NCBI GenBank assembly: GCA_030062745.1
Contig: CP099842.1
Location: forward strand, 11,229,838-11,293,837
DNA from: Capitulum mitella
Lineage: Eukaryota; Arthropoda; Thecostraca; Pollicipedomorpha; Pollicipedidae
DNA length: 64,000 nucleotides
Direction of reading: 5' to 3'
Shown here: positions 10,151 to 57,039 of the stretch, piece by piece
Numbering within the stretch: position 1 is the first letter of the stretch
How the letters are laid out: each line of letters starts with the position of its first letter
Position numbers and translations under genes: made by a program
The notes under the pieces: model-generated
Database searches by the model: none
The model's input: only the letters and a program-made list of their open reading frames with translations
Told to the model about the DNA's origin: nothing

Positions 10151-11354
10151 TTCCCCGACCCTATCTGAGGTTTTTCTGGCATTGCGAGAGAACCAACAAA
10201 CACAGAGCCACGAAACTTTGTGTACCTTTTGCTCCATCAATTTTACGTCCCGTGTCAAAATTTTGACCTCAGGTCAGGTCAAGTTCCTGACCTAGGTCAG
10301 GTCAAACAGACCTATGTCCAAAAAAGTTTAGCGCCCTCTAACTTTTTCGCAAAACAAGATATCTCAATAATACTTTCAGGGAGTAGTGACCGTGATAGAT
10401 GCAACAAATCTGCTATCTCAGATTTTTTGGGATTTTCCGGGTCATTGACCTAAGTTCAAGCCCATTTTTAAGACATATCGCCGTTTTTTCGGAAATTGAC
10501 GGAATATTCCATAACATTTTTAGTGTGGAGTGAAGCAAACATCTAGTTACCGTCATTGGGCAAAGTATCAGTGACCTCCAGCCATTGACCTGAGGTGAGG
10601 TCACGAATAACTGTAGTGGGCCAAAATGTACCACCGTCAAAACCGACGATGAACTATTCAGAATGCGTAGAAAATGGCAGAACTAACTTGCACAGACGTA
10701 ATTAATACCAGGAACCTCAAAAAGTTTCAAAAAGTAGCATATTTTGGAAATAAATAGGCTCTCGCGAATAAAGCTCCGCCAACTTTGTAGATTGGCAACT
10801 GAGCAATTTTCCCAAAATTTAAGCATGAGAAACCATCACAAGAACCACAGAGATCAATAAAATTGACATAGATTGTCCTTTTTCGCGAAAATAAAGGAAC
10901 GCCAAAATTAGTTCCCGTCAATTTGGTGTCGCATACGACAGCGGCGCACACTGACGGCCGACCGGGAGAATTACGGTGTCTTTAACTCAACGTTTCGGCG
11001 TATATATTGAAGAAATCTGGGGAAATTAGACGTGTATCGGCATCCGCGAACATTTACTTGTGCGCTGGTGCCTTTACCTATGCGTTATTAGTCACAGCCC
11101 TTGAGATTCAGGCCATTTCTCGGTCTCATGCAGTCGGCTATGAGAAAACATATGTAGGGCGTAAATTGGCTTACATATTATCTAAAACTAAAAATGAGAC
11201 CAGTTTCGAGCTCTTCTCATCACAGGCTTTCCAACGGTATGCTTATTTTTTTATCGTGCAACGAACCGTTCGTGAGTTAGAGGGGGAGGCAGTCAACTGC
11301 CCCCCCCCCCAGTCGCCGACGTTCGGGACGGACCGACGGTCGTGCGCGGGTTAA
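10151..11354 (-). mobile_element. TTAA-type non-autonomous element, family A, copy A4
   Basis: A ~1.2 kb non-coding element in inverse orientation, homologous along its length to 39042-40249, 40830-42055 and 48368-49581. Its 5' end, on the right, reads TTAACCCGCGCACGACCGTC on the minus strand, with TTAA at 11351-11354. Just inside is a G-run/C-run hairpin with core GGCAGTCAACTGCC (11288-11302). The interior has several AGGTCA/TGACCT hexamers, including the palindrome TGACCTAGGTCA near 10288-10299. The 3' end near 10153 has lost its G-run hairpin (CCCCGACCCTATCTGAGG remains). Short open frames have no recognisable protein. Confidence 0.7.
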
Positions 11355-11499
11355 AAGCACTCGTCACTGTTGCTCTGCAGTCTTCGTAGAACTTTCGGAA
11401 TCAAAATCCAAAGTCGGATAAAAAGATCTGAGATCGGAAATACAGGTCCCAATGGGACAGAGTATGCAGCCAGGGCACGTTCCGCACCTGGGTCACCAT

Positions 11500-11690
11500 T
11501 CCAAGATGTTGACGAGGTTGGGTCGCAGTTCATGGCTGTGTCATAGTGCGAGTTTGAATCACAGCTATGTCTATGTCATTCACAGCTATGTCTTAGTCCG
11601 AGCTTGGACCATTATTCACAGCTATGTCATGGTCCTAGGCTGGGTCATCATTCGTGGGTCATGGTTTACGGCTGTGTCATAAGCGGTTGG
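11500..11690. repeat. Degenerate ~30-bp word array (CAGCTATGTCATGG)
   Basis: Variants of CACAGCTATGTCATGGTCC recur five or six times with irregular spacing. Only the word is conserved; the spacers drift. No protein-coding sense is visible. Confidence 0.6.
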
Positions 11691-11710
11691 GCATACCGAC
11701 ATCTAAAGGG

Positions 11711-11772
11711 AGATATGATTTGATTTCATATGATCTGATTTGATTTTCATTTGATCTGATTTGATTTGGTAG
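11711..11772. repeat. GATTT-type simple repeat
   Basis: Interrupted repeats of TGATTTGATT, TGATCTGATT and similar words form a short imperfect satellite. Confidence 0.7.
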
Positions 11773-12239
11773 GCAAGTAGATTTTGCATACCGCGAGCGG
11801 TTGGCCAAGACAAATCTTTAGGTATTGCAGCAAACAAGGCCGCCCAACTGGGTGAAAAACACGGCTTAAGCACGCCATCGCTGAGACATTGAGGGTTGTT
11901 AACTCGCGAATTGCTGAGCATACTATCTCCCCCTAAGTTTTTACAGCATAACTACCGCACGACAAACGTCAACGACCTCAAGTTTTCGTGCTCTTACCAT
12001 AACAACACGGTCATCTCTTGACAAAAACAGCTAACAGGATCACCGTAGTTCAGGTCACATGACCTCGGTATCCGAATCGAAGGCGCGGTTTTTAGGTACT
12101 GTTAGGACTCCTGCATCTGGCGTTTCCTGTTGACATGATTTGCGACAAGCTCATCAGGAATGACACAGAGACCAAATATCAGGTCACACAAGCACAAATG
12201 ACCTAAAGTGAGGTCAACGTCGGCCATTGGCTAGCTTTG

Positions 12240-12580
12240 CATGGTACCTGGATCAATAGCCGAAGTGTTTTTTTTTGTCGAAAGCTTTTCTGCGGAATGT
12301 GATTGGGCAAATGCTTTTTTGGTAAATGGCATTTCATCGACCTTGCAAAATGTCGAATGCAAAAAGACGAATGGCTATATGTCGACTGTTATTTCCCACC
12401 AAAATGTTAATCCCGAAGGCAATTAAGGGAAAGCCAGAAAACTGAATGCTATTTGGCGATCATCAGTTAGTCTTTCGTTGGTTGTAGAATGGGCAAAAAG
12501 CCGAAATGTTTTTTCGCCGAATGCAGTTAGACAAATGCTGTTTTAGAGATCAGTCGAAGGCGAATGGAATGAACGTCGGT
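12240..12580. repeat. Degenerate word array (GCCGAATG)
   Basis: Words such as GCCGAAGTG, GCGGAATGTG, GTCGAATGC, GCCGAAATG and GCCGAATGC alternate with T-rich tracts every 15-35 bases. It resembles the arrays at 11500, 25620 and 26330 in style but not in sequence. Confidence 0.5.
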
Positions 12581-13954
12581 ATGCTGACGAGTCACCCGAT
12601 CTCATCTGAATCTCTAACAGAACTAAGCTTTGAACCGTATGGCTCTTCTCATTTGACTGGTAAATGTCATTGGCAACAGATGCTGAAATCGGTAAATGTA
12701 AACGGTAAAAAGCACCAGCCAGGTCTCCGAATACAATAGTGTTGTTGTCCGTGTTCGTCAAAACGTGTGCAGTCGGACTATATTTTCAGGCTACTTCGCA
12801 GCTAAGGCCTGGGGCACGACTCGCTTTACGGCGGGGCCCCCACCGGGCACTTGCCAGCACGTGAGGTATGCGCTTCTCGTCACGCACGTTTTCCCGCGAA
12901 TGCCAGTCTCGGCAACAATGCGAACAGTTACGAAATTCGTGCCAAAATTAGGTAACTCCAGCTGGGTTTCGTGGGGCACTAACCCAGCATATCGTCTCAA
13001 ATAAGTATGCGGTTTATCCTGCAGCACCTCGAAACGTAGCCATCCTGCCTGACTATCCTGCCTGACTACCGCGAACCATTAGTGAGGATTAATTTCATGC
13101 GAGCAAAGTAGAAAGATATCTCAGAACATGTGCAATACAAACGGCATCAACCAACAGTAAAGAGATCCCTTTTGTGACCTGTTTCTAGAGAAAACATCGG
13201 TAATTTTTGGCTATCTTACCTACATTCGCTGTCGGTGGGGGTTTGACTTGGATTCGACACACGGCCAACGTTTCCAGGCCAAATGCCGTTCTGCAATGCC
13301 AATAAATGCTGAGAGAAACTAACGTGAATTTTTAATCAAGTTTGAGATAAGATAGACATAAAGTGCATTTTTAATAAGAAATTCAGAAATATACCGGAGT
13401 GCTACACTACTCTAGATATAGTTTTCAATAACGTTCTCATGTGGCATTCATCGGTATCGAGCAGCGACTTTGCAGCTCCCTGTGCTCACTCTGCGTATAG
13501 CCTCTTTTCCAGCTGGCACTGACACCTTCGGTTACGATGCCTGAAGTATGCTTTGGCACTTTATTTTGTTTTCAGTCAGCGACTGGGAGTCTCTTTTCAA
13601 ATGATGTGGTTGTTATAGTGGTCATATCGCCGCAGGTGAAATGAAGCTTGTTTTCTGCTGGGGCCTAGCCCCCTGTGACGCCATAAGGTGGCTCTTCATC
13701 ATACCTCGGCCTGTTTCAGCCTCTGTAGATCTGTTTATATCGGACTAACCACTGTGAGTCCGATATTAACCTATAAATGTAAATTCACCATATGGATCAG
13801 CGAATTTCGGAATTGTCTGCTGTACATGTAAGTGTTCGTAATGTTTTAACGCTCGCAACTTGTGAACGCATTGACTTTAAGTTATTCATCTTTTTTGCTT
13901 GATGACATTCAACGTAAGTCTATTGAAGAAAAACCGTTTGGTCATTTTCTGCTC
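12581..13954. other. Unassigned intergenic sequence
   Basis: A GC-richer patch (12785-12980) keeps overlapping frames of about 78 residues on both strands, with no recognisable family. A short foldback, ATATCGGAC/GTCCGATAT, occurs near 13738-13768. CTGCCTGACTATC is directly repeated near 13046-13070. Nothing else is evident. Confidence 0.35.
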
Positions 13955-14080
13955 CTTTATATATATATGCGTACGTGCACACATATTACCTTATTTGTCA
14001 TATATCCATACATGATGTGGTAAATATGCGTTTATATAACATACACGTTGGGTAGATCAGGCGCTTGCAATATATATGTA
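13955..14080 (+). repeat. Direct repeat, left copy (pseudo-LTR-like)
   Basis: It matches 14858-14990 through CATGATGTGGTAAATATGC and GTTGGGTAGATCA, at roughly 80-85 percent identity by eye. The left copy continues with GGCGCTTG, the right copy with AGCGCATG followed by a TA repeat. Confidence 0.65.
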
Positions 14081-14246
14081 TGTAATGTAATGTATGTAAT
14101 ATGTATGTATGTAATGTAACATATGTACATATATACACAAATATAATAAAAACAAAATATTCCACAACATGGATGTATTGGAGTGCTTATGTTTGGCCAC
14201 AATGCAGGTCTCGGCATAGCTGGTGAGATATTGGTGCTAAACTTAC

Positions 14247-14573
14247 GTGGATCGATTGTTCAAAATTCCATGTGGGGGATGCGATAAGGTTTATTTCGAT
14301 GAAATGGGTAGGGGGTTGAAACAGCACATTCAGGAGCACAAAGCTGATTTAAAGTACCATAGGACGACGAATTCTTTTGTGATGCATGCGGGAACTCATG
14401 ATCATCTACCAGACTGGACTGGATCAGCCATTTTGCATGGTGGCATAAATAAAAGAAGTGGGAGGGCTGTAGAGGCTGCCTATATTGCAACGAAACAGAA
14501 CATAAAGTTGCCGCAAGGGTTTCTCAAACTGTCGATCTCAGTGGCGCAATTAACAAAAAGTGAATTCTAGAAT
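14247..14573 (+). pseudogene. Penelope-type GIY-YIG endonuclease domain, 5' truncated
   Basis: The frame reads FKIPCGGCDKVYFDEMGRGL, then a histidine/glutamate pair (IQEHKAD), THDHLPDWTGSAILH and a late EAAYI. This is the order of the Penelope-like GIY-YIG endonuclease: a YxIxCxxCxxxYIGxTxRxL start, RxxEH, HxxDW and the metal-binding glutamate. The GIY-YIG half is degraded (YFDEM where YIGQT is expected), so catalysis is doubtful. The frame has no ATG of its own (it opens on GTG) and no RT upstream, so this is the C-terminal remnant of a longer protein. It ends at TAG 14568-14570. Confidence 0.7.
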
Positions 14574-14857
14574 TAGTATGTTGGGTACGGGAGCGGGAGG
14601 GGAAGGACAGGGTGGATGTGTGCAGCTGCGTCTGCCAAGTACTGTGTTATGTGAAACTTACTCGTTTGCAATCTTCACGTGGATATGCAATGTTCTTCAC
14701 GTGCTGTGATCACGTTTTGTGCATCGAAAAAACAAACTAAAAAAACAGCATTCCTGATGAAGGCAATAATAAAGCCGAAACACCGATTACTGTTTTTATC
14801 TTTCGAAATATTTAGTTCCATTATCATCTTCATTCTATGAGAAAAAACATCCTATCT

Positions 14858-14981
14858 TAATATATCGGTACATATCTATGCGTGTGTGCACACTTATTTC
14901 CATATATGTCATATATGCATGCATGATGTGGTAAATATGCATTTATTTAACACATTTTATGTTGGGTAGATCAAGCGCATG

Positions 14982-14990
<9 letters not shown>
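14858..14990 (+). repeat. Direct repeat, right copy (pseudo-LTR-like)
   Basis: Partner of 13955-14080. It runs into the TA microsatellite at 14984. Beyond the microsatellite, CAAGCGCCTGAT (15044-15055) is the inverse of the ATCAGGCGCTTG near the end of the left copy, so the right junction can also fold back. Confidence 0.6.

Positions 14991-15042
<52 letters not shown>
14984..15042. repeat. (TA)n microsatellite
   Basis: About 29 uninterrupted TA dinucleotides, sitting inside the right repeat of the Penelope-like remnant. Confidence 0.95.
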
Positions 15043-15043
<1 letters not shown>

Positions 15044-15235
15044 CAAGCGCCTGATATACGTAGCCAGCTTAAGGGTCGGCTGGCTGCTGTCGGCCGGCCG
15101 GCCGGGCGGCTGTCTGTCGACAGCAGCGCGCTGAGTGACGCCGTGTCTCGGCCCGCCGAGTCTGACCCCGGCTGGCGTCACGCCCGGCACCGGTCCGCGC
15201 GCGCCCCGACAGCTCCCACGACCGGCCGAGGCGGG

Positions 15236-16682: not shown

Positions 16683-16723
<41 letters not shown>

Positions 16724-18560: not shown

Positions 18561-18600
18561 TTTGTAAACTTTGGCCAACTTTCGTGCTTTTTTAGTAAGC

Positions 18601-26655: not shown

Positions 26656-28123
26656 TTAACCCGCCCAGTACCAGTGGTCAAATCCACCTTCCCCGTACCA
26701 GGAGGGGGTGTTTGAACAACCCCTCTAACTCGCGAGTCATGAATCGGAGGAAAATGAAAGATATATCATTGGAAATCCCTTGAAGAGTAGAGCTCGGGAC
26801 CGGTAACATTTTGAAAATTACTCACAATTTTAGGGAAATACTGCCGAAATTTTGTTTTTTTTCTTTAATATCTCAGCAGTTTATCTATATTTTGCCCCAA
26901 ATTACACCTTACATGGTAGCTTACAACATGTCAAACAATCTTTTTTAAGTAAATTCCATTTTTCTTATCTTCAGCGAGCGTCAGGTCAGGTCACTTCATC
27001 GTTCGGAAATGGTAAATTGGTAAAATATGCATCCTCCTTTTCTTCCTACTGGTGAGCATGTTTTTACGGCTAATTTGCATTTAAGGGGGTGCTGATGAGA
27101 TACCCAAACACATTTTAGATGCCCAAACAGGATTTCAGGTTGAAACAAAGATCAGCTGAGGTCAATTAAGGTCAGATTTTCAAATCATAGGTGTCGAGCA
27201 ATTCAAAGCTTTAGCGAGGTCTACGTGGCAAGTGGAATATTTTTTTCAGGGTTCAGGAAGGGCCAGTGGAGGCCAAGAGGTCGCCTGCCGACAGTCTCCG
27301 ACGCCACTTAAAGCGCCTGCCATGGGGAGAAATAAGTAGGGTGCACAAGGCCATGTAGGAATTTTCTTTTAATGGAGCCGTCTTGTCGCAACTTATCTCT
27401 GGCATTGTTTTCACATTGCAGTGACCCATTCAAGGCTGCAACAAACTCTTTGGTGCATTGCTCAGGTCAAAAGGGATCATTGACCTCAGATGACCTCCAA
27501 TGAGCTTATTTCGCCCTACCGTGTGAGGTATGTTTTGGGTCATAAATTCGAATTCAGCTATTTCAACCCTACAGAACTGCAAATTGCTAATCCTAGGCAT
27601 AAAGTTTGGGCTTATAACATGCACCCATATTGCTGTGTTGTGACATCAACCAAGGTGACGGGTGTTCTGGTGACATGATGGTAACATATGTGAGGGGTTA
27701 TGCTGCTGATAATATCTCAGCATCGTTATCTCGTAAGAATCCGTTCAAATTTAGACAAGGTCTCAAAAAAAAAGACTAAAACTGACCTGCCGTCAGGTCA
27801 CTGACCTGGAATTTTCCGAAAAATCTGAAATACAAAAACTGTACCCTCTGTCATGTGCTATAATCCAGCAAGTTTTCGTAAACTCAGTCCAACAACCAAA
27901 AAGCTGTAGGGGGCAAATTTTTGTTTCAAGGCTGACCTTTTCGACCTGACCTAAGTCAGTGACTTGACCTGATCTGGAGCTAAAATTTTGGTAGGATATG
28001 TGCAATGAATGGTAACAAAGATACCGTAAATTCGACGGCTCTGTGTTTTCTCGTTTTTTGGCTACAGCGAAAAAACCTGAGGGGTGTTCAAACGTCCCCA
28101 CCCCCTGGTACGAGGAGGGTTTA
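26656..28123 (+). mobile_element. TTAA-type non-autonomous element, family C
   Basis: The left end is TTAACCCGCCCAGTACCAGT (TTAA at 26656-26659). A second CCCGTACCAGG follows about 30 bases later, then the hairpin GGGGGTGTTTGAACAACCCC (26704-26723). The right end has GGGGTGTTCAAACGTCCCC (28081-28099) and CCCCCTGGTACG, then AGGGTTTA where GGGTTAA is expected. The ends are thus inverted repeats of each other. AGGTCA/TGACCT hexamers recur inside (about 26982, 27150, 27468-27497, 27785-27812, 27925-27972). The last 350 bases align with the 3' part of family A. About 1.46 kb, no protein. Confidence 0.6.
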
Positions 28124-32448: not shown

Positions 32449-32450
32449 TA

Positions 32451-33011: not shown

Positions 33012-34265
33012 ATGACTGACACTCCAGGATCGAAAAGAAAAAGGTCTTCTTATGAGGCTTCTTTCAAGCTAAAAGTCATCAAATTTGCAGAAGCAAATGG
33101 CAACTGGGCTGCTTCCAGAGAATTCACAATTCCACAGGCAAATGTCAGGCTGTGGAGAAAACAGAAAGAACTTCTGGTTGAGCTGCCAAAAACCAAAAGA
33201 GCATGCAGGGGCCTTCCAGCGAAGTACCCGGACTTGGAAAAAGAGCTTGTGGAATGGGTGACTGACCAGAGATGCAGTGGCTACATTGTCACGATGCTTC
33301 ACATCCAGCTAGAGGCTCTCAGAAGGAAGAGAGATCCAGGTTTCAAGGCTTCTCTGAATTGGGTCCACAGATCCATGAAGAGAAATGGCCTGAGCCTGAG
33401 GCAGAAGACAAAAATCTCTCAAAAACTACCTTTAGAACTTGATAACAAAGTAATTTCATTTCACTCCTATGTGTTGAATCAAAGAAAACTGCATGACTTT
33501 GAACTCTCACAGATTGGGAACATGGACGAAACACCTCTGTGTTTTGACATGCCTGGCAGTAGAACAGTTGAGCCCAAGGGAAGCAAAACTGTCCAAATCA
33601 GAACAACTGGATATGAAAGGACACACTTCACCACAGTCCTGACCTGCATGGCAGATGGAACTAAGCTCAAGCCAATGGTGATTTTTAAACGAAAGACAGC
33701 TCCAAAAGAGAAATTTCCAGCTGGTGTGGTGATCCATGTACATCCCAAAGGATGGATGGATGAAGAAGGAATTGTGCTGTGGCTCAATCGAGTTTGGAAT
33801 AGCAGGCCTGGAGCTCTCCTGAAGAAGAAATCCTTTTTAGTGTGGGATCAGTTCAGAGCACACATGACTGACAAAGTGAAAAGAAAATGTGCTTCTCTCA
33901 ACACCACCCAAGCAGTGATTTCTGGTGGCTTGACATCTATCCTGCAACCTCTAGATGTCGTTCTGAACAAACCGTTCAAGGACAGAATGAGGCAAAAATG
34001 GATGGCTTGGATGGCTTCTGGTCAGCAAGAACAGACCAAGAGTGGAAACTTCAAGAGACCTAGCCTGTCTCTAGTCTCTACTTGGGTCAAGGAAGCCTGG
34101 GATGACATTCCGTCTCAGATGGTTGTCAAGAGTTTCCTGAAGACTGGAATCTCAAACAATTTGGATGGCACAGAAGACGATGAACTCTGGAAAGAAGACA
34201 CAGAAGAAGAAAATGAAGAAGATGAAGACCAGCTTGACCCAACTGGGATACAGATGCAAGACTAA
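33012..34265 (+). CDS. pogo/Tigger-like transposase (DDE_1), C-terminal frameshift
   Basis: A 417-residue transposase that would bind the element ends and cut and rejoin DNA in the nucleus. Residues 8-52 form a lysine/arginine-rich helix-turn-helix of the pogo/POGK type (SSYEASFKLKVIKFAEANGN, then VRLWRKQ). Residues 66-130 fit the second, CENP-B-like DNA-binding helix-turn-helix. The DDE_1 catalytic triad is visible: D172 in NMDETPLCF, D279 in FLVWDQFRAH and D315 in ILQPLDVVLNKPF, spacing DD35D. The tail (about 385-417) is acidic. The ATG at 33012 is the first in frame and precedes the HTH at the usual distance. After the stop, a shifted frame carries TPEEFHELFDDSDHDDFDGL and stops at 34325-34327, so a one-base indel near 34240-34250 has cut an acidic tail of about 25 residues. 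Confidence 0.9.
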   Translation: MTDTPGSKRKRSSYEASFKLKVIKFAEANGNWAASREFTIPQANVRLWRKQKELLVELPKTKRACRGLPAKYPDLEKELVEWVTDQRCSGYIVTMLHIQLEALRRKRDPGFKASLNWVHRSMKRNGLSLRQKTKISQKLPLELDNKVISFHSYVLNQRKLHDFELSQIGNMDETPLCFDMPGSRTVEPKGSKTVQIRTTGYERTHFTTVLTCMADGTKLKPMVIFKRKTAPKEKFPAGVVIHVHPKGWMDEEGIVLWLNRVWNSRPGALLKKKSFLVWDQFRAHMTDKVKRKCASLNTTQAVISGGLTSILQPLDVVLNKPFKDRMRQKWMAWMASGQQEQTKSGNFKRPSLSLVSTWVKEAWDDIPSQMVVKSFLKTGISNNLDGTEDDELWKEDTEEENEEDEDQLDPTGIQMQD

Positions 34266-38189: not shown

Positions 38190-38353
<164 letters not shown>

Positions 38354-39041: not shown

Positions 39042-40249
39042 ACCCGCGCTCTACTGCGGGTCGTTGCCATGCACGCCCAACTGAGGGGCTTGACTGTTCC
39101 CCTGTAACTCACGAGCGGCTGGTCGTACGATAAAAATAAGCACGCTGTTGGAAAGCTTGTGACGAGTAGAGCTCTCATTTGCGGTTTTGGACAACATATC
39201 AGCCATTTACGCTCCATGTGTGTTTTCTCATAGCTGTCTGTACGAGACCGAGAAACGGCCTGGATCTCAAGGGCTGTGGTTAATCAAGTCTAGATAAAGA
39301 GACCGGTGGACAGGTAAAAGACCTCAAATGCCCACACACGTCTAATTTCTGTGATTTGTTTAATATATACGCCGAAAGATGAGTTAAAGACACGGCGATC
39401 TTCGTAATGCTGCACGGCAGGCGCCGCAGAGGAACGTGGTATAAAGTTAAAGAGAACTAATTTTAGCGTTGTTTGTTTTCGCGAAATATGTCTTTCCAAG
39501 TGTTGGTCCTTGATCCTAGTTGCTCTTGTGATGGTTTCTCATGCTTAAATGTTGAAAAATTCAGTAGTCATCAATTTACACAATTGGTGGAGCTTCATTC
39601 GCGAGAGCCTGTTTGCTTCCAAAACATGCAATTTTTTGAAATTTTTTGAACTTCTTGGTATTATTCGCAACCATGCGAGCCAGTTCTGCCATTTTCTACC
39701 CAATCTGAGTCACTCATCACCAGTTTTGATGACAGTGCATTTTAACTCAAAACAATTATTCATGACCTGGCCTCGGGTCAGTGGTCGGAGGTCATTGAAA
39801 CTTTGTCCATTGACGCTGAATGGGCATCTGGACCTCCCGACACTCATACTGTTGTAAAAAACCGTGAATTTTCTAAAAAAAGACGAAATGCGTAGAAAAC
39901 GGGCCTGACCAGATCAATGACCCGGACATTCCCAAGAAATCCGACGTAGCAGATTTCTTACATTTATCAAAATCTCTAACCCTTGAACGTTTTATTGTGA
40001 TATCATGCTTTGCGAAGAAGCTACAGGGCGCTAAGCTTTTCTGGACATAGGTCCATAGGTTCATTTGACCTGACCTAGTTCAGACATCTTACTTGACTTG
40101 AGGTAAAAAATTTGGTGTAATGTGTAAAAATGATAAAAAAGGCACACAAAGTTTCATGGCGCTGCGTTCGTTTGTTCCCCCGCAATCTTGGAAAAATCCC
40201 AGGGGGTGGTCAACCACCACCCCCCCCCCCCCCAGTCGGGGCGGGATAA
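39042..40249 (+). mobile_element. TTAA-type element, family A, copy A3 (diverged)
   Basis: It aligns with 40830-42055 over its length, sharing words such as ACTCACGAGCGGCTGGTCG, GATAAAAATAAGCACGCTGT and TATATACGCCGAAA. The left end is decayed (GAGACCCGCGCTCTACTGCG where TTAACCCGCGCACGACCGTC is expected). The right end carries the hairpin GGGGGTGGTCAACCACCACC at 40202-40221, followed by a long C-run, AGTCGGGGCGGGATAAA. The hairpin stem differs from the other copies but is perfectly paired. No protein. Confidence 0.65.
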
Positions 40250-40829: not shown

Positions 40830-42055
40830 TTAACCCGCGCACGACCGTCGGTCGGTTACGATCATGCCCGACTGGGGGGGGGGGGACAGTTGACCGTCCC
40901 CTCCAACTCACGAACAGTTGGTCGCACGATAAAAATAAGCACACAGTTGGAAAGCATGTGACGAGTAGAGCTCGAAAATGGTCTTATGTTTTAGTTTTAG
41001 ATAATATGTAAGCAATTTACGTCTTATATACGTTTTCTCATAGCCGACTGCATGAGACCGAGAAATGGCCTGAATGTCAGAGGCTGTGCCTGCAACGCAT
41101 AGGTAAAGGCACCGGCGCACGAGCAAAGGTCCGCAAATGCCGATACAGATCTCATTTCTTTTCTCGGATTTGTTCAATATATACGCCGAAACGTTGAGCT
41201 GAAGACACACCAATTTTCGCGCCGGCTGTCGGCGTGCGCCGCAGCCGTAAGCAGTACGAAATTGACGGAAACTAATTATAGCGTTCCTTTATTTTTGCAA
41301 AAAAAAACTATCCATGTTAATTTTATTAATCCTAGTGGTTTTGTGGTGGTTTTTCATGCCTAAATTTTGGAAAAATAAATACCAATCCACACCATTGGCG
41401 GGGCTTTATTCGCGACAGCCTGTTTATTTCCAAAATATGCAACTTTTTAAAACTTTTTGAGGTGCCTGGTATTACTTCTGTGCAAGCCAGTTCTGCCATT
41501 TTCTGCTCATTCTGAATACTTCATCGCTGATTTTGACGGTGGTACATTTTGGCTCACAACATTTATTCGTGACCTGACCTCATGTCAATGGCTGGAAGTC
41601 ATTGATACTTTGCCCAATGACGGTTACTAGATGTCTGCTTCACTCCACACTAAAAATGTCATGAAATATTCCGTCAATTTCCGAAAAATCGACGACATGT
41701 CTTAAAAATGGGCTTGACCTTAGGTCAATGACCCGGAAAATTTCCAAAAAATCTGAGATAGCAGATTTGTTGCACCTATCAAGATCACTAATCGCTGGAA
41801 GTATTATTGCGATATCCTTTTTTCCGAAAACGTTTCAGGGCGCTAAACTTTTTTAGGCATAGATCTGTTTGACCTGACCTAGGTCAGGCACCTGACCTGA
41901 CGTGAGGTCAAAACTTTGACACAAGGTGTAAAAAATGGTCAAGCAAAAGGTACACGAAGTTTCGTGACTCTGTGTTTGTTCGTTCTCTCGCAATCCCAGA
42001 AACACCTCACGGGGGGCGGTCAACTGCCCCACCCCCGGTCGGGGACGGATGAAAT
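40830..42055 (+). mobile_element. TTAA-type element, family A, copy A1
   Basis: The left end is TTAACCCGCGCACGACCGTC (TTAA 40830-40833), then ATGCCCGACT and a G-run with the hairpin GGGGACAGTTGACCGTCCCC (about 40882-40901). The right end has GGGGGGCGGTCAACTGCCCC (42011-42030) and CCCCCGGTCGGGGACGGATGA. Copies A1 and A2 are roughly 85-90 percent alike by eye. The interior at 41868-41912 is dense in TGACCT/AGGTCA hexamers, including TGACCTAGGTCA. The minus-strand open frames inside (for example 41213-40908) recur in the other copies with different stops, so they are not genes. Confidence 0.75.
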
Positions 42056-42757: not shown

Positions 42758-43027
42758 AAGACCCATCCATAATCTTTCGATTCATGCCAACTTCATCAAA
42801 ATCGGTCCATAAACAACGGAGTTATGAGACGTCCAAAAGTACCCTCCATTTTGATATTTTTGCCCCCCTGTATCCACCCCTTTCAAAATTTTGAAGAGTT
42901 CTTTTTTAAAAGTGTAGTTTACGTCATGGCAAATGGATTGCCGTTTCTTGCGATGGAATCGGATGTATAGTTCCCGAGCTCTCAGGGGGGGAGGGGCATG
43001 CCATGTAGCCCTCCGGAAATACGGTTA
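42758..43027 (-). mobile_element. TTAA-type element, family B, left end (inverse orientation), cut by gap
   Basis: On the minus strand it starts TTAACCGTATTTCCGGAGGG (TTAA 43024-43027) and continues with CCCCCCTGAGAGCTCG and ACGGCAATCCATTTGCCATG. ACCGATTTTGATGAAGTTGG follows, matching 54185-54480 in order. Its right end is lost in the assembly gap. Confidence 0.7.
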
Positions 43028-48367: not shown

Positions 48368-49581
48368 TTAACTCGCGCACGACCTTCGGTCGGTTACGAC
48401 CATGCCCGACTGGAGGGCAGTTGGCCGCCCCCTCTAACTCACGAACGGCTGGTCGCACAATAAAAACAAGCATACCGTTGGAAAGCTTGTGACGAATAGA
48501 GCTCGAAACTGGCCTCATTTTTAGTTTTAGATAATATGTAAGCAATTTACGTCCGACATGTTTTCTCATAGCCGACTGCATGAGACCGAGAGATAGCCTG
48601 AATCTCAAGGGCTGTGACTAATAACGCATAGGTAAAGGCACCAGCGCACAAGTAAAGGTCCGCAAATGCCGATACACATCTAATTTCTCGGATTTGTTCA
48701 ATACATACGCCGAAACGTTGAGTTAAAGACACGACAATTTTCGCGCCGGCTGTCGGCGTGCGCCGCAGCCGTACTCAGTAAGAAATTAACGGGAACTAAT
48801 TTTAGCGTCTCTTTATTTTCGCGAAAAAACTATCCATGTCCATTTTATTGATCTTAGTGGTTCTTGTGATAGTTTTTAATGCTTAAATTTTGGAAAAATT
48901 CATTAGTTACCAATCTACACAACTGGTGGAGCTTTGTTCGCGAGAGTCTGTTTATTTCCAAAATATGTAATTTCTTAAACTTTTTGAGGTTCTTGGTATT
49001 ACTTACGTCTGTGCAACCCAGTTCCGCCATTTTCTACCCATTCTGAGTAATTCATCGTTGACTTTGACGGTGGTACATTTTGGCTCACTACAGTTATTCG
49101 TGACCTGACCTCAGGTCAATGGATGAAAGTCATTGATACTTTGCCCTGTGACGGTAACTAGATGTCTGCTTCACTCCACACTAAAAATGTGATGAAATAT
49201 TCCGTCAATTTCCGAAAAAACGACATGGCTTAAAAATGGGCTTGACCTTAGGTGAATGACCCGGAAGATTCCGAGAAATCTGAGATTGGAGATTTGGTGC
49301 ATCTATCAAGATCACTCTTTCCTGAAAATATCACTGTGATATCTTGTTTTTGGAAAAAGTTACAGGTCGCTAAATTTTTTTGGACATAGATCTGTTTGAC
49401 CTGACCCAGATCAGGCACTTGACCTAACCTGAGGTTGAGACTTTGACACAGGGTGTAAAAATGATGAAGCAAAAGGTATACATAGTTTCGCGACGCTGTG
49501 TTTGTTCGTTCTTTTGCAATCCTAGGAAAAACCTCAGGGGGCGGTCAACTGCCCCCCCCCCTCCAGTCGGGGACGGGTTGA
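48368..49581 (+). mobile_element. TTAA-type element, family A, copy A2
   Basis: The left end is TTAACTCGCGCACGACCTTC (TTAA 48368-48371). The right end has GGGGGCGGTCAACTGCCCCC (49536-49555) and CCAGTCGGGGACGGGTTGA, so the target copies are TTAA and TTGA. The left hairpin (48413-48432) is GAGGGCAGTTGGCCGCCCCC. The interior matches A1 closely, including TCATTGATACTTTGCCC and GATGTCTGCTTCACTCCACA. The receptor-like hexamers cluster at 49397-49437. The body is 1206 bp and non-coding. Confidence 0.75.
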
Positions 49582-49960: not shown

Positions 49961-50062
49961 AGTCAGAGGGCGGTGTCTCTCTGCTGCAGATGGGAGTCAG
50001 AGTGCGGCCCTCCTCTCCTCTGCTGCAGACGGCAGTCAGAGGGCGATCTTCGTCTGCTGCAG
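49961..50062. repeat. ~35-40-bp repeat spanning the channel gene's stop codon
   Basis: AGTCAGAGGGCGG followed by CTCTGCTGCAGATGGG occurs about three times with slightly different lengths. The last unit encodes the final residues (LQQTKIAL) and stop of the DEG/ENaC gene on the minus strand, so the C-terminus may have been set by repeat expansion or may vary between individuals. Confidence 0.6.
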
Positions 50063-50440
50063 GGCGCCGTCCGCCGCCGCCTTCGGGCCGCCGCTGACGA
50101 CACGCACCAGGTGTGGCGCCGACTCGCCGGCCCGCGACGGTGGCGACGCGTAGCGGGCGGGTGGCGGTGGCGGCTGCGGCGGCGCCACCTTGGCGGGCCG
50201 GCGTCGACGGAGCCCGCGGACCCGCGCGCGCACCACCAGCAGCAGCGCCTCGGTGCTCTGCACGATGCTGATGACGGAGACGCCCAGCAGCAGGCTCATG
50301 TTGCCGCCCACGTCCGAGATCAGCCCGCTGAGGCCGTAGGTGACCTCCTCGGTGGAGAGCTCGATCTGGTACGGCCAGCGGGCCAGCAGCTTGCACTTGC
50401 CGGAGCGCGCCATGCCGGCCACGTTCTGGGACGAGCTCAC
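50036..50440 (-). CDS. DEG/ENaC channel, exon 3 (TM2 and C-terminus)
   Basis: Last exon: an acceptor (CCTTCTGACGTCAG, AG at 50442-50441) precedes VSSSQNVAGMARSG, and the exon ends at TGA 50038-50036. It encodes residues 309-442: the palm strand before TM2 (PYQIELSTEEVTYGLSGLIS), DVGGNMSLLLGVSVISIVQ (TM2, about 344-378) and a cytosolic tail rich in arginine, then proline. The GVS triplet (361-363) is the GxS selectivity-filter motif that marks DEG/ENaC pores. Where most family members have a glutamate eight residues after the filter glycine, this protein has glutamine (Q369), with a glutamate three residues later. Phase joins cleanly to exon 2. The tail is less certain, since a possible donor lies in AAGGTGGCG and the tail overlaps a repeat. 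Confidence 0.85.
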   Translation of the reverse strand: MSSSQNVAGMARSGKCKLLARWPYQIELSTEEVTYGLSGLISDVGGNMSLLLGVSVISIVQSTEALLLVVRARVRGLRRRRPAKVAPPQPPPPPARYASPPSRAGESAPHLVRVVSGGPKAAADGALQQTKIAL

Positions 50441-51014
50441 CTGACGTCAGAAGGAGTGGAAGAACATGTTAACTGCGGCGTGTCATCGCCGACACATGCG
50501 GGTGATCAGTGCGTGTGCAAGAATATAAACTAATGTATGAGCGCAATCTGTTGCATGTTCACGGACGCACCTCTTTATTCATTTACGTAATTACACACAT
50601 ACGTACATTTACTCATAACTGTCCTAAAATATTACACTAACCATGCCCTCCAAATTGTTTTATGCCTCTGATGCTGCTTTCGCAGCACATGCATCACACT
50701 CACTGAAATGGGCGGAGGGGCGCTTTTGTGCCCCCACCTGTTTTTATTCAACATCTCAAGAACAGATCAGGGTTGGTCGCTACTATTTTGTGACATGGAT
50801 AACAACTGGAAAACTCCTAGACTGACGCAAAAAAAAAATCGCAAATCGGCCCGGAAATTGTTGAAGTTTGAAGCATGTCAAACAAACAAAACGACGAAAA
50901 TAAAGGTTGTCGCTGACAAATGGGACTTTTGCGAAAGGCTAGCGTTTTACGTAAGATTACCGTTGGAACATAACCAGCCGACATCATTCGGGCATAAATG
51001 ATGGATGTACCAAG

Positions 51015-51469
51015 ACCAAGGCCAGGGTCAGTAAGGGTCAAGGTCATCAAAGACCAAGGTCAACCAGTTTGTGACCTGATCCAGATTTGTTTTGCAACAT
51101 GTCGGTTTGTATGAAATATGCATTCAAAGACGCTAATAAAACACGTGTGCGCACATTGGTACGCTTACTCGTACATATACAAGGGTCAGTGAAGGTCAGA
51201 GTCGTCAAACGTCAAAGGCAACTGTTTTGCGACATGGTCCATATTTGTTTTGCAACATGTCGATTTCTATAAAATATGCATTCAAAGGCCCTAATAACAA
51301 CACGCTTGCGCGTATTGATACGCTTATATATACTAGGATCAATGCAGGTCGAGGTCGTCAAACGTCTAAGTTAATTATTTTGTGACTTGGTCCAAATTTG
51401 CTTTGCAACATGTCGATTTGTGTGAAACATGCATTAAATGACCCTAATAAAAACACGTTTAGCACATTA

Positions 51470-51470
<1 letters not shown>
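51015..51470. repeat. Three tandem ~160-bp units
   Basis: TTTGCAACATGTCG recurs at 51091, 51249 and 51412, each followed by TATGCATT or CATGCATT, then CCCTAATAA or GCTAATAA and AACACG, and preceded by TTTTGTGAC or TTTTGCGAC. Periods are 158 and 163 bases. Each unit also has a GGTCA-containing stretch. Confidence 0.8.
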
Positions 51471-51578
<108 letters not shown>

Positions 51579-52539
51579 ATTTCTACCCTGTATAGCAATC
51601 AAATCGTGCAATTGGGTCCATTGAAACGAAACAACTTCAGCGCAAACAGTTGACATAAAACTTACTTCGGGTGAAAAACTTGATCCAAGGTCAATGGCCT
51701 CGTTTCACTTCTTTTGACCTTGCGGAGGCTAGTAAACACCAAAAGTGACCAAATGTATCGATTTTGGCCATCTCCATTGAAAATACGCCAAAAGATGTGT
51801 TTAGTGCCCTTATTTACACCCAGTTGACACCAGGATTCCGCGTTACTCGAAATCTGATCCGCCAAAAATGAAAAATGGCCTCATAGATCAATGACCTGAC
51901 ATAACCTCAACCCAACTCCTCAGTCAAGACGTCGAATGAATGGAAATTTTCGTATTCCATGTCTGAACGCTCAAACACGCAGTCTTTTCCCTTTCCTTTC
52001 GAAAAGTCGTATGAAATGGCATGTGCGGCCCGAGGAAGTGCCCAAAGTTGACATTTTCGACCCCGTTTGACCTGGAAGATATTAACTTAGGGTCGTGAAA
52101 ATTGCGCACTATGTAAATCTTTATAGCCCTACCCTACCCTCAAAAACTCATCTCTAATTCTGCTTGTCTTACCGATCAGAGGGGGCACTTTTGTGTCCCC
52201 CCTTGCAGTGCACGTCATATGACAGTATTTGAATGAAATTGCAAATTGCATGGATGGTTAGCTTGCATTAAGGCGTTTTAGGTTTCATTTTCATATCTGA
52301 AAAGAATACATGTGTCTGGTGCCCACCACTTTTGACATCACATCTAAAGAGTTTAACGGAAGTTACAACCTGACCTTGGTTCAAGCACCGTCCAATTTGC
52401 TTCGCCTTCAGCTTTGTTTCTTCACCCCTCTCTCATTTTCTCAATTTTTTCATAGAAAATCTTTAATCTCACGGAGTTTTCTGGTTTAGGAGTCTCTGTA
52501 GTCTCTGTCCTCCTTTTATGGCGCTCCCTTGTCTCCGAA

Positions 52540-53125
52540 AATCCGGGATTCGAGCAAGGGGGGACGATGGGGGTGATCACTCTCCCCTGAAGCCTGGGAA
52601 AGGGCCCTTCTCAGACTCAAACGGGGCCCCGAGGAGGGCTCCGTTTGATTCTTTTCTAACCCCCTTTCAGCTTCACAGGGTGTCTGTGGAAACGTGACGG
52701 GTTCTTGATGCAGTCGGGGGCCTCCAGGAGGGTTCGATGACCTCTGGGATGCAAAGAAGGGCACCTGAAGCTCCCAAAGGGTCCCTGAGGCCACAACAGG
52801 GCCCCAACACGGCCGATTGCTCCTGAGGCCGCCAGAAGGGTCACAGGGCCCCTGAGACGCCCAAGATGAGGACTGAGTCCCTAGGACAGTTTAGTGGCCC
52901 TTGCAATGTCTAAGGGGCCCCGAATGATTTTCACGGATCTGTGTGAAAAGCTGAAGGTTCCTGATTGCGGTCAGAGGGCCTCTGGGAAAGTACCTGAGAC
53001 CCTGAGACGGCAAGATGGCCCCTACGATGGATAGAAGGGAATCTAAGATCCTTCAAGGATCCCTGGGGTCGCAATAGGAGCCCCAACACGGCAAAGGGTC
53101 CGTGACACGGCTAGAAGAGATCCAA
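52540..53125. repeat. Degenerate array R1, copy 2
   Basis: It matches window positions 1-640 in order and orientation (see that entry). It ends where the unit type switches to R2 at about 53130 (CAAGCCCATAGGGGGCCC). Confidence 0.65.
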
Positions 53126-53129
53126 GCCC

Positions 53130-53740
53130 ATAGGGGGCCCTATTGGCCTGTACGGGACCCTCTGCCGGTCTGTACTGTCCCCTGCCAGCTTGTGCGGCCC
53201 CCTGACAGCCTGTAGATGCCTCTTGCCAGCCTGCAGGGGACCCTGCCGGCCTGTAGGGCACCCTGCCAGCCTGTGGAAATTCTGTTGGCCCGTAGGAATT
53301 CCCTATTGGCATATAGGGGGTCCCTGCCGGCCTGCACGGGCCCAATGATGGCCCACAGGGGGCCTCCTGCCGGCCTTTTGGGCCCCTACGGTACTGTAGG
53401 GACCAGCTGCCGGTCTGTAGGGCTTCCTGCCGGCCTGTGGGCCCCCGCCAGCCGTGGGAAGGCCCTGCTGACCCGTGGAGGGACCCTCTACTGTTCCATG
53501 GGGCCCTGTCAGCCTGCAAGGTCGAGTCGGAATGGATCCCCTGCTTGCCCGTAGCTGTCCCCTGTCGGCATGAAGGGGCTCCTGCTGACATGCAGGGGTC
53601 CTTGCCGCCGCCTGTAGGACCCCCTGCCTGTCTATGGAGGGGCTCGCTTACGGCCTGTAAGAAATCCCCGATGGCGTTTAGAGGAGGCCGCTAACGGCCT
53701 GCAGAGGGGCCCCCTGACAGCTGTGGAGGCCCCCAGTGAA
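53130..53740. repeat. Degenerate ~30-bp array R2, copy 2 (inverse)
   Basis: About twenty units around CCCTGCCGGCCTGTAGGG, the inverse of the units at 4371-5010. The minus strand stays open for 182 codons (53591-53043) with a ~10-residue pattern such as GRQEALQTGSW and RPAGSPAGWQEAS. The period near 30 explains that. A direct junction with R1 at 53130 shows the two unit types are parts of one larger repeat. Confidence 0.65.
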
Positions 53741-54184
53741 AACTTGTTTTTGGTGCGATCATCGACAATCAGGGAAGATTGTCGGTTGCAGGTTATAATG
53801 GTTGTTGATGCTGGTTGCAGCTAATGATGTTCAGCAACGGCAAACGTCCATTGTCGTAAAATTTTTATTGGCTGTTTTTATTCAGGGGCCCACTCATGGG
53901 ATACGGTCTCACAACTGGTCACACACACCCCTCCCCTACCCCTCCCAGAATTCTGAACCGGTTATACCTTTCTGCGAGCCTTTTGTGAAATGCCATGTTA
54001 ATATCTTTGTCTGGGGGGCCCACATGAAATGAAGGAGACTCACCGCTGGGCGAGGATCATCCGAAATTTTGGGCTGGCTGCGCCCCTGCCTCCCAAGTGT
54101 GTTAGGTGAGCTTCTGGCATAGAAAAGGTCCGCCTGAAACTGCGAGGGAGTCCCCTAAAGCGCCAATAAAGGCTAATGATATGG

Positions 54185-55407
54185 TTAACCCTATTCCCGG
54201 AGGGCTAGACGGTATGGCCGATTCCCGGCAGGGGGGGGGCGGATTCGGCCCCCCCCTGAGATCTCGAAAACTACTTATCCGATTTCATCGCAACAAACGG
54301 CAATCGATTTGCCGTGACGTGAACTACATTTTTATAAAAAGAAATTTTCAAAATTTTGAAATTTGTGGATACAGGGGGGCAAAAATGTCAAAATGGGGGG
54401 TACTTTTTGACTTCTTGACATAACTCCGTTGTTTATGGACCGATTTCGATGAAACTGACATGAATCGAGAGATTATGGATAGGGCTTTTACCATGGGTAT
54501 GCAAATTTGAAATTTTGAGAAAATTCATGGGCGTTCACAGGGTTTTAAAAATGGGGGGATTAGTTTTCTAATAACGGAATGAACAAAAGAGGCCAAAACA
54601 CTTTTTTAGCTTCTGCTAGTCATATTATGCTAAAGAAGTACAAATCGCATTACAATGTTTGTATAATGTTAGCATAGGCGGTGCCAGGGACATAAAAAAG
54701 GGGGAACTGTCATGGTCCCACGTTCTTCAGATCAACTTGTGACCTTTGACCTTAAATGACCTCCGGTGACCTTGGGGTCACCTGGAATGATGTCGTGTGC
54801 ATTTAATATTATCTGTAAACGTTTTTAATTGATTGAATTCACTCTATTCCAAAAAATTCATTTTTTGGCTTTTGCGATATCGGGTACGCGCACTGACATT
54901 TTAGGTCATAGCTCCGTGACCCGACCTGATATCAAGCTGAAACTTGCTACACAAGTAGAGGGCACCTTGTTACGTCATATTTATTCCGGGTTTGGCATTT
55001 GAAAAAACGGCGCCGAAATTATTGCGAAAAAAACAAATTTTGACTTTTGACCTTGACCTGACCTTGTAAAGTGACCTCAGATAAACAAAATTACATATGC
55101 ACATTGCCCAACTATTTAACTATACATTCATATAAAGTTTTAAGTTCTATCTTAAAAACTCTGTTTTTGGCAGACATTTTCCTTTTACCCTCAACATGGC
55201 CAAAAATGACCTGAGGTGCCTCCCAGAAACGTTGCCTGGCTCCGCCCCTGAGCAAAATAGAATTTCGAAATTTTGTCACGGCGCGTAGAAGGAATAGCTA
55301 GGAAAAGTGACCAAGTTTCGTGAAGCTGCGTTAAAAAGCCTGGAATTGGCAAGCAAAAAACCCGAGGGGGGGGCGGATTCCGCCCCCCCTGCCGGGAATA
55401 GGGTTAA
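54185..55407 (+). mobile_element. TTAA-type non-autonomous element, family B, copy B1
   Basis: TTAA at both edges (54185-54188, 55404-55407). The left end is CCCTATTCCCGGAGGGCTAG; after a partial duplication, CCCGGCAGGGGGG begins a hairpin with core GGCGGATTCGGCC (54231-54257). The right end is GGGGGGGGCGGATTCCGCCC (from 55366), TGCCGGGAATAGGG, the inverse of the left end without the duplication. The body is 1215 bp. TTAA duplication plus a CCCT start is the piggyBac pattern. The interior has TGACCTTTGACCTTAAATGA (DR1 spacing) followed by two more half-sites at 54741-54775, and TTGACCTTGACCTGACCTTG near 55047. No protein is encoded. Confidence 0.85.
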
Positions 55408-55831
55408 AGGGGCCTTAAGACCACCAAATATACTCCATGTAACAGAGGAAGACCCCTGATACAGTCATGGAAACTACCGGAAACGTTCAGGAGGCCCATG
55501 ACATTGCACAGGGGCACTTAAATCTCAAAAAAGTCCTCTTTAACCTGCCAGAGGGCCTCTGAGACGGCAAAACTGTCCCCTAGAGACGACAAGAGGGGAG
55601 TCTAAGACAACAAGGGTCCACTGAGACGAACAGAGGGGCCTTTTCCACTACTAACCCTTGTGACGTCCAGATGGCTGCTGACACGGCCAAAGAACCTATA
55701 GCATTGCTAGAGGCGCCTCTGTCACGACAGAGAAAGACTAATAGAGGGCCTTTGCTACTGCTTGAGGGGCTTCTAAGACGGTGAAAATTCGTCACGGATT
55801 TGGCAAATTGCAGGAGGGAGCCCGAGATGGC
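55408..55831. repeat. R1-type degenerate array between B elements
   Basis: Units such as CTCTGAGACGGCAAAACTG and CCACTGAGACGAACAGAGGG recur every ~30 bases. The two family B elements interrupted a once continuous array (52540 to about 57200). Confidence 0.6.
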
Positions 55832-57039
55832 TTAACCCTATTTCGGGAGGGCTAGACGGTATGGCCGATTCCCGGCAGGGGGAGGGACGGAATCGGCCCC
55901 CTGAGATCTCGAAAACTACTCGTCCGATGTCATCGCAACAAACGGCAATCGATTTGTCATGACGTAAACTACATTTTTATAAAAAGAAGCTTCCAAAATT
56001 TCGAAAGGGGTGAATACAGGGGAGTCAAAATGTGGAATATTTTTGAACTTGTTATAACTCTCTTGTTTATGGACCGATTTTGATGAAATTGGCATGAATC
56101 GAGAGGATATGAATGGGACTTTTGCCGTTGGTCCACACATTTGAAGTTTTGAGAAAATTCGTAGGCGTTCACAGAGTTTCAAAAAAGGAAGGTTAGTTTT
56201 TTTCAAAAACTGAAATAACAAAAAAGTTTGAAATAACTTTTTACTTTCTGTTAGTCATGTTATGCTGAAGAGGTACAAATGGTATTGCAATGTTTGTAAA
56301 ATGTTAGCAAAGACGGTGCCAGGGACATGAAAAAGGGGAACCGTCATGGTCACATATTCTTCAGGTCATCTTACGGCCTTTGACCTTAAATGATCTCCAC
56401 TGACCTAAGAATCGCTTAAAACGATCTTGCGTGCATTTCATATGGTTTGAAAACGTTTCCAATCATTTCAATCCAATCTATTCCTAAAATTCCATTTCAC
56501 GGCTGTTGCGATAAATGGTACGCGCACTTACATTTTAGGTCATAGCTTCGAGACCCAACCTGATATCAAGCTGAAACCTATTATACAAGTAGGAGGCACT
56601 CTTCCATATTATATGTATTCCAAGTTTGGCATTTGAAAAGGCAGCGCAAAAATTATTACTATAAAACATATTTTTGACTTTTGACCTTGACCTGATCTTG
56701 TGAAGTGACCTGAGATAAACGAAATTGGATCTGTATGTTGCCCAACCATTTACCTATACATCCACATAAAGTTTTAAGTTCTATCTTAAAACCGCCATTT
56801 TTGGAAGACATTTTCGTTTTACCCTCAACAGGGCCCAAAAAGGCCTGAGGTGCCTCCCAAAAAGGTTACCTGGCTCCGCCCCTGAGCAAAATAGAATTTT
56901 AAAAATTTGTAAAGTACGTGAAAACGTGTCTGGAAAAAGTGACCAAGTTTCATGGAACTGCGTCAAAAACCCTGCAACTGGTAAATAAAAAACCCAAAGA
57001 GGGTGGATTCAGCCGCCCCTGCCGGGAATAGGGTTAAGG
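55832..57039 (+). mobile_element. TTAA-type non-autonomous element, family B, copy B2
   Basis: TTAA at 55832-55835 and 57036-57039; body 1200 bp. The left end is CCCTATTTCGGGAGGGCTAG with the same ~28-base partial duplication as B1, and the right end is GCCGGGAATAGGG. It aligns with B1 throughout (shared CGATTTTGATGAAATTGGCA, TTTGACCTTAAATGA). The hairpins have decayed here (GGGGGAGGGACGGAATCGGC at left, GAGGGTGGATTCAGCCGCCC at right), and several receptor-like hexamers are mutated. It is probably older than B1. Confidence 0.82.

Follow-up and report, generated by a model that had tools for sequence, protein, structure and literature searches.

In piggyBac of the cabbage-looper moth Trichoplusia ni (T. 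ni), a palindrome is reported at bp 17–33 with its centre at about bp 25, and bp 34–63 of the right end are almost identical to bp 7–35 of the left end (PMC7351741); the palindromic 19-bp internal repeat is described as asymmetrically placed at the two ends (PMC7351741; PMC11707139). According to published work, the transposase zinc fingers bind this palindrome as a dimer, and the structural paper terms the unequal ends of the moth element enigmatic (PMC7351741). We analysed a window of 64,000 nucleotides from Capitulum mitella that carries four families of elements, A–D, with a G-run/C-run hairpin near their ends. An earlier note on this DNA knew of no described family with such a hairpin architecture, which T. 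ni piggyBac in fact has (PMC7351741; PMC11707139). Judged from their sequence, A–D are new families with an end architecture already known from T. ni piggyBac, and no prior description of them was found in a limited search of the open-licence literature.

The window holds four A, two B, one C and one D copies (Table 1), all of them non-coding and 1.2–1.5 kb long as the earlier note had described. No stop-to-stop frame that overlaps one of these elements is longer than 126 aa, none of 10 stop-to-stop frames taken from them matched Pfam, and the window had no Rfam match at the gathering threshold. Of the at least 118 piggyBac transposase matches found in the genome (116 of 267 candidates scored), none lies in the window. 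MITEs in the strict sense are under about 0.6–0.8 kb; given their length, A–D are termed non-autonomous elements instead. The 477 Mb genome from which the window comes could be searched, so that claims were tested on additional copies; the A copy at 48368–49577 has 90% identity to its best other match there. For the window copy of family D, the left boundary was set by eye against relatives and the right limit is the end of homology. The window elements are also rich in AGGTCA hexamers, although these were rejected as conserved functional sites (identity in the motif columns of family A was 95.2%, compared with 93.9% on average under the null, p 0.11).

Table 1. Elements of families A–D and related fragments in the window
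Element	Position	Strand	Features	Basis
Family A copy	10165–11354	minus	right hairpin lost by deletion; the end at 11354 is long-spaced	blastn self-match, 85% to 40830–42048 and 48368–49577
Family A, older copy	39042–40245	+	72–74% to other A copies; right palindrome 40202–40224	self-match, sequence reading, stem scan
Family A copy	40830–42048	+	TTAA at 40830; left palindrome 40882–40901	self-match, sequence reading, stem scan
Family A copy	48368–49577	+	right palindrome 49537–49556; right TTAA changed to TTGA by mutation	
Family B copy B1	54185–55407	+	exact TTAA...TTAA; palindromes 54229–54258 and 55367–55389	
Family B copy B2	55832–57037	+	exact TTAA...TTAA; palindromes partly decayed	
Family C copy	26656–28123	+	left TTAA, right TTTA; palindromes 26702–26725 and 28081–28104	
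Family D copy	about 50691–52215	+	both TTAAs lost; right palindrome 52180–52203; left hairpin about 50716–50735	
Family B relative, truncated, diverged (71%)	62241–62908	+		
Family B fragment	42758–42991	minus	adjoins 500-base run of N	

The earlier note had read TTAA duplication and CCCT termini as a sign of piggyBac-like mobilisation. Within the window this applies to B1 and B2, in which TTAA and CCC termini are perfect at both ends, but no A copy has TTAA at both ends and the D copy has lost both. Among relatives genome-wide the reading was upheld: exact TTAA was found at the left and right ends, respectively, of 36/39 and 31/39 family A copies, 10/10 and 10/10 family B copies, 6/10 and 4/10 family C copies, and 6/9 and 4/9 family D copies. 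Empty sites were in agreement. Flanks could be joined for 26 of 40 family A copies, and 7 of these matched other sequence across the junction; a single TTAA was aligned at four of the seven junctions inspected. Of the other three, L050 has a TTAA displaced by one base, and L053 and L070 have none. These sequence data show that families A–D insert at TTAA. CCC tips were present at both ends of A, B and C and at the right end of D in most copies read; the tip of the D left end is CAC. Insertion with duplication of TTAA only and CCC/CCY termini are both features of the piggyBac superfamily.

The ends themselves are of two kinds. At one end of each family the recognition motif lies at bp 4–9 with a palindrome centred near bp 24.5–27, and at the opposite end the motif lies 27–28 bp deeper (offsets A 27, B 28, C 27, D 28). 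The motif starts at 9 in 36/38 short-spaced and at 36 in 35/39 long-spaced ends of family A, and at 6 and 34, respectively, in all ten ends of each type in family B. For family C it starts at 8 (10/10) and 35 (4/10), the recognised motif in five others of the ten long-spaced ends being the tip copy at 8 only; for family D it starts at 4 (8/8) and 32 (4/7). The end types of family D are reversed compared with those of A–C, and in B1 the left end bears the 28-bp displaced motif. Palindrome centres, computed from hand-typed consensus ends, were 24.5 and 51.5 for A, 26 and 54 for B, 24.5 and 51.5 for C, and 52.5 for the right end of D, with the D left end not resolved by the centre scan. The ends thus have the T. 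ni-type design of an internal palindrome near bp 25 and a second end set 27–28 bp further in. The spacing from motif to palindrome is inexact because the G-runs differ in length even within the set of B copies 96–97% identical to B1. A further transposase-bearing locus (L170) has its tip motif repeated 27 bp in; at another, L172, the second motif was missed by the script. On C1, where 84 and 100 family B tips of the two types were listed, 60 opposite-type pairs lie 1172–1246 bp apart and no like pairs were found; this pairing was not used to argue for a requirement for both ends, since common descent predicts the same pattern.

The palindromes were assessed by scanning for stems of 6 bp or more that include a run of four G or four C, with 20 dinucleotide shuffles as the null. 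The window gave 10 clusters against a shuffle mean of 2.05 (range 0–4), and eight of the ten fall at element ends, including the D right end (52180–52203). The proposal of a hairpin inside each end needs correction at several ends: the right hairpin of 10165–11354 is gone and those of B2 and the C right end are imperfect; that the palindrome sequence differs between families was confirmed. Folding of six ends as single-stranded DNA clearly beat shuffles at both ends of B1 (z −2.4 and −2.7) but at none of the other four (z −1.2 to +0.2). Even the consensus arms contain mismatches, at pair 4 of A (A.C), at left pair 3 of B (G.G) and at several inner pairs of D.

The frequency of stems at element ends, far above chance, could reflect selection for hairpins in single strands or for RNA structures, in which case changes in one arm should be compensated in the other, and the earlier note had indeed held that changes on one arm are mirrored on the other. 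Across all pairs of family A, two-sided changes that remain paired do exceed shuffles (left 5 versus a mean of 1.09, p 0.002; right 7 versus 1.96, p 0.001). Of these 12 changes, however, eight are at pair 4, which is unpaired in the consensus, and two come from L064, a copy with its core deleted; in a stricter A set, 7/8 pair-4 cells are T-A, from five copies that by eye resemble one subfamily. The excess of two-sided change in A is mostly at one consensus-unpaired pair and chiefly in five subfamily-like copies. At the outer, consensus-paired positions of A (pairs 5–9, counted on 70/80 ends) there were 46 one-sided changed cells versus 2 two-sided (L040 left and L063 right), with about 0.7 two-sided expected (on average 0.29 at left and 0.44 at right ends in shuffles). 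Family C (20 ends) had 42 one-sided changes, none two-sided and paired, and 4 two-sided and unpaired; family D (15 ends) had 22, 0 and 3, and family B (20 ends) 1, 1 and 0, respectively. G-run and C-run lengths in family A ends were uncorrelated (Spearman −0.005 and 0.08). Mirrored change was therefore not borne out, with no excess of compensatory change at these outer pairs of A or in B, C and D, and on these counts, together with the four of six ends that fold no better than shuffles, selection on a hairpin was rejected and is in our view very unlikely. A purely mutational process without function, in which arm-to-arm copying through cruciform or template-switch repair keeps the arms alike, would account for L090, a B copy from the set 96–97% identical to B1 with both arms changed symmetrically, and for the two-sided A changes in L040 and L063. 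The ratio of 46 to 2 means that such copying is rare at best, and as it also leaves the fixed 27–28 bp offset unexplained we regard it as an unlikely explanation for the likeness of the arms.

One family D copy elsewhere in the genome (L152) is informative as to the transposase. Family D positions 25–767 match its positions 286–1039, and 815–1440 match 3435–4047, with a DDE_Tnp_1_7 domain (PF13843) between them and TTAA at both ends; it is a single broken copy with a broken reading frame. The transposase scored 63.4 bits to T. ni piggyBac versus 14.1 to piggyBat, and its second piece 39.8 versus 20.8. Because this copy holds a T. ni-like transposase between the same arms, D elements seem to derive from a transposase-bearing D element by internal deletion. 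The genome does contain piggyBac elements nested in members of A, B and D (L011, L017 and L026), although a nested insertion is disfavoured for L152: in L011 and L026, where a piggyBat-like element has landed within an A and a D copy, its inverted repeats are present at the inner junctions (alignment score 38, against shuffle maxima of 21 and 22), whereas the inner junctions of L152 scored 14 against a shuffle mean of 15 and have none. An old nested insertion could, however, have lost its inner repeats. Among 21 divergent transposase loci with flanks read (8, 10 and 3, the last three in short pieces), one, L152, proved to be a D element and none belonged to A, B or C. The piggyBac transposase that the earlier note had proposed to look for between such ends was in this way found for family D but not for the others. 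A B element at L160 and an A element at L163 inserted next to transposase loci and do not enclose them, and on C1 the two B ends lying 6.4 kb apart belong to separate neighbouring elements. L155 and, with an internal stop, L172 carry a C-x2-C ... C-x2-C-x4-C-x2-H ... C-x2-C pattern, which we take to resemble the cysteine-rich domain of the T. ni transposase; searches with the L155 zinc-finger segment alone matched neither a Pfam family nor a PDB sequence.

Kolobok elements also use TTAA, and the genome contains two further, well-represented piggyBac lineages closer to piggyBat, their representatives scoring higher to piggyBat than to T. ni piggyBac; A–D could accordingly belong to another TTAA-specific superfamily or be mobilised by these residents. 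The tips of the piggyBat-like lineages differ from those of A–D (TTAACCCATTAACGCCCAG; TTAACCCTTTAGTGCCCA and TTAACCCATTAGTGCCCA), and those of their ends that were inspected by eye showed neither the motif nor a displaced palindrome, for which reason these lineages were rejected as mobilisers. Given also that the gene-bearing D copy encodes a T. ni-like piggyBac transposase, both possibilities appear extremely unlikely.

Families A–D are very probably non-autonomous members of the piggyBac superfamily of DNA transposons that T. ni piggyBac-type transposases mobilise in trans, and the hairpins at their ends resemble palindromic sites at which transposase docks. The transposase core would bind the tip motif, the two C-terminal zinc fingers of the transposase dimer would bind the two palindrome halves as double-stranded DNA, and the displaced palindrome of the opposite end would seat a second dimer. 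The arms would then match because one dimer reads both halves, and not through single-stranded hairpin formation. Each family-specific palindrome may track its own transposase, with copies decaying independently after insertion. Finding the same displacement with different palindromes in four families of another animal suggests a requirement of the machine, not an accident of one element, and A–D are ready variants for testing it. It is conceivable, although we put this at somewhat below even, that the 27–28 bp asymmetry reflects a deep constraint of geometry on the clade of T. ni-type piggyBac elements, in which palindrome sequence is free and displacement fixed. If so, this genome would offer a natural series of matched zinc-finger/palindrome pairs, in several families of hundreds to thousands of copies. 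More generally, transposon-end palindromes that resemble conserved hairpins can be protein docking sites.

Of the known systems, T. ni piggyBac (PDB 6x67/6x68) has the closest solved transposase to that of the gene-bearing D copy, and as described shares with A–D the TTAA target, a palindrome near bp 25 and its displacement by 27–28 bp at the opposite end. Unlike in T. ni piggyBac, the palindromes here have long G/C runs and are family-specific, and the window elements are gene-less and contain numerous copies of the AGGTCA hexamer. PiggyBat of Myotis lucifugus (PDB 9c0f; PMC11707139) belongs to the same superfamily; its palindrome, unlike those of A–D, is reported on the left end only in the relevant passages of that paper, and it is closer to the transposases of the two other lineages here, not to that of D. 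The CMITEs of Acropora corals (PMC2872659) are likewise non-autonomous, with TTAA and CC[C/T]T tips, and are attributed to piggyBac-like transposons; unlike A–D they are about 100 bp long and share an internal region, and the available sections of that account describe no asymmetric palindrome.

Ends were read from 40 A copies and, for B, C and D, from 10 copies per family, only the best-scoring copies being used, so that older or rearranged copies are under-represented. TTAA begins all 20 B end pieces. The motif preceding the palindrome starts close to the tip at the short-spaced end (bp 9 in A, 6 in B, 8 in C and 4 in D) and at bp 36, 34, 35 and 32 respectively at the long-spaced end, which is the left end in A, B and C and the right end in D; the offset between the two ends is 27 bp in A, 28 in B, 27 in C and 28 in D, in a count that left out eight ends (three A, five D) with an unmatched tip or core. 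Allowing one mismatch, 4 of 10 C left ends had a recognisable inner motif, and in five only the tip copy was recognised; D had it at bp 32 in 4 of 7 right ends. Palindrome centres in the typed consensus ends lay at 24.5 and 51.5 (A), 26 and 54 (B), 24.5 and 51.5 (C) and 52.5 (D right); the D left centre was not resolved in the centre scan, and at the long-spaced end of A the one centred at 51.5 was slightly outscored by a shorter palindrome at bp 15. Median centres in individual copies were 25.5 and 56.5 (A), 27 and 55 (B), 27 and 53 (C) and 25.5 and 52.5 (D), shifting to larger values with longer G runs.

The earlier note had proposed that changes on one palindrome arm are mirrored on the other. 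Within families this was not borne out: in A, C and D one-sided changes far outnumber two-sided ones, indicating that the arms decay independently. For A, 77 of 80 ends were extracted and 70 kept; pairs 5–9 had one-sided changes in 19 cells at left ends and 27 at right ends, with a single two-sided change at each (shuffle means 0.29 and 0.44). The looser sets gave 42 one-sided, no two-sided paired and four two-sided unpaired changes in C; 22, none and three in D; and one one-sided and one two-sided paired change in B. The looser A set did yield a formally significant excess of two-sided paired changes (p 0.002 and 0.001); of the 12 cells behind it, however, 8 belong to pair 4 and two to L064, a copy with a deleted core. 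Pair 4 is an unpaired A.C in the consensus, with eight cells two-sided and paired; seven of these are T-A, from five copies (L006, L061, L062, L066 and L067) that by eye have other differences in common. G-run and C-run lengths were not correlated across A ends, and the palindromes of the A, B left and D consensus ends still contain unpaired positions. The mirroring noted in the stems is mostly a matter of differences between families. One young B copy (L090) has a right palindrome changed symmetrically on both arms, possibly by arm-to-arm copying.

At least 118 DDE_Tnp_1_7 matches occur in the genome (116 of 267 candidates scored), the best 30 splitting into two main groups (14 and 15 matches) and a singleton. 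In bit score, group representatives were closer to piggyBat (93.4 and 85.2) than to T. ni piggyBac (70.9 and 41.7); where read, the tips of the two groups were TTAACCCATTAACGCCCAG, or TTAACCCTTTAGTGCCCA and TTAACCCATTAGTGCCCA, and a displaced palindrome was not seen by eye in the ends read. These groups (loci L009–L038) represent two piggyBac lineages nearer to piggyBat, and several of their loci have a long open transposase frame. Among 20 further transposase fragments, eight matched neither group nor singleton above 35% identity, and surroundings of 4.2–5.0 kb were taken for each.

One of these eight loci, L152, aligns with D on both sides of its transposase (D 25–767 with L152 286–1039; D 815–1440 with L152 3435–4047) and has TTAA at the expected far end. 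Its transposase is interrupted by stops and no longer functional; the two pieces scored 63.4 and 39.8 bits to T. ni piggyBac and 14.1 and 20.8 to piggyBat. PiggyBat-like elements are nested inside A (L011), B (L017) and D (L026) elsewhere, and L152 might likewise be a piggyBac nested in D. However, L011 and L026 show inverted repeats of the nested element at their inner junctions (alignment score 38; shuffle maxima 21 and 22), whereas the inner junctions of L152 scored 14 against a shuffle mean of 15, and between them occur just two TTAAs, both well inside the insert. Nesting is therefore disfavoured, and the best reading of L152 is a D element that carries a gene, decay of old nested tips being a possible alternative.

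A search with one L152 transposase piece gave 45 matches, including itself and weak ones, and flanks of ten more such loci were read. L170 repeats the tip motif 27 bp in at one end; at L171/L172 D-like tips flank a transposase match on both sides (the L172 likeness by eye), the inner motif repeat of L172 not being recognised by script. Short pieces at three more transposase loci yielded nothing. The expectation that a piggyBac transposase would lie between such ends was thus borne out for D, by L152, and not for A, B or C, of which no gene-bearing copy was found among 21 transposase loci.

Features located in the window and at transposase loci
Feature	Position	Strand	Remark
Sodium-channel (ASC) matches	window, within 50036–50446 and 60748–61608	minus	
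Tc5/pogo-type transposase (DDE_1)	window 33012–34262	plus	uninterrupted 417-aa frame
GTTA repeat	window 38191–38353		perfect 4-base repeat, ~41 copies
B fragments	window 42758–42991 and 62241–62908		from self-comparison
L152	C15:17038980–17043533		begins with D-type TTAACACGCGCACTGG tip
L171/L172	C7:22155077–22158938		

Self-comparison of the window (contig C4, 11229838–11293837; genome 477 Mb, 16 contigs) recovered four A and two B copies, and a weak A–C link. From its ASC and Tc5/pogo-type matches the source is taken to be an animal. A G/C-run stem scan gave 10 clusters versus 2.05 expected, eight of them at element ends. The longest stop-to-stop frame overlapping any element is 126 aa, ten such frames from the elements matched no Pfam family at E 0.1, and the window matched no Rfam family at gathering threshold; without a gene, these elements would rely on transposase made elsewhere. 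AGGTCA/TGACCT hexamers, a nuclear-receptor half-site, are concentrated in the window elements (68 of 115; 6.1 per kb versus 0.9 outside). L152 has 10 in its 1.74 kb arms and none in its 2.15 kb middle, and six piggyBat-like elements have 0–2 each; in A, hexamer columns were not significantly more conserved than others.

First-look candidates in the genome numbered 8557 (A), 7193 (B), 550 (C) and 3817 (D), and the best 40 scored per family were 86–90%, 96–97%, 71–77% and 73–81% identical to the window copy. Two B tips occur exactly 5109 and 5927 times, their reversed control patterns not at all. For empty sites, 26 of the 40 A copies were bounded exactly by TTAACCC and GGGTTAA and could have their flanks joined, and seven joined flanks matched other sequence across the junction. 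With one match inspected per copy, four of the seven (L042, L063, L065 and L067) aligned a single TTAA at the junction; in L050 it was one base off, and L053 and L070 had none. L042 sits within an element related to the C copy of the window, and at L163 an A element and the apparent tip of another piggyBac-type end stand back to back on one TTAA, near position 1068.

Distinct palindromes bound by a protein dimer are already documented in the piggyBac superfamily. In T. ni piggyBac the C-terminal cysteine-rich domains bind, as a dimer, a palindromic 19-bp internal repeat (left-end bp 17–33, centre near bp 25), and left-end bp 7–35 are almost identical to right-end bp 34–63, an asymmetry called enigmatic there (PMC7351741, excerpts). 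By analogy, the tip motif of A–D would be held by a transposase dimer whose paired zinc fingers engage the palindrome, the displaced palindrome of the opposite end would seat further subunits, and the element would be excised and then joined into a TTAA; this mechanism rests on structures in the case of T. ni piggyBac, and for A–D we infer it. The near-identity of the two T. ni segments amounts to a displacement of 27–28 bp, compared with motif offsets of 27, 28, 27 and 28 bp in A, B, C and D.
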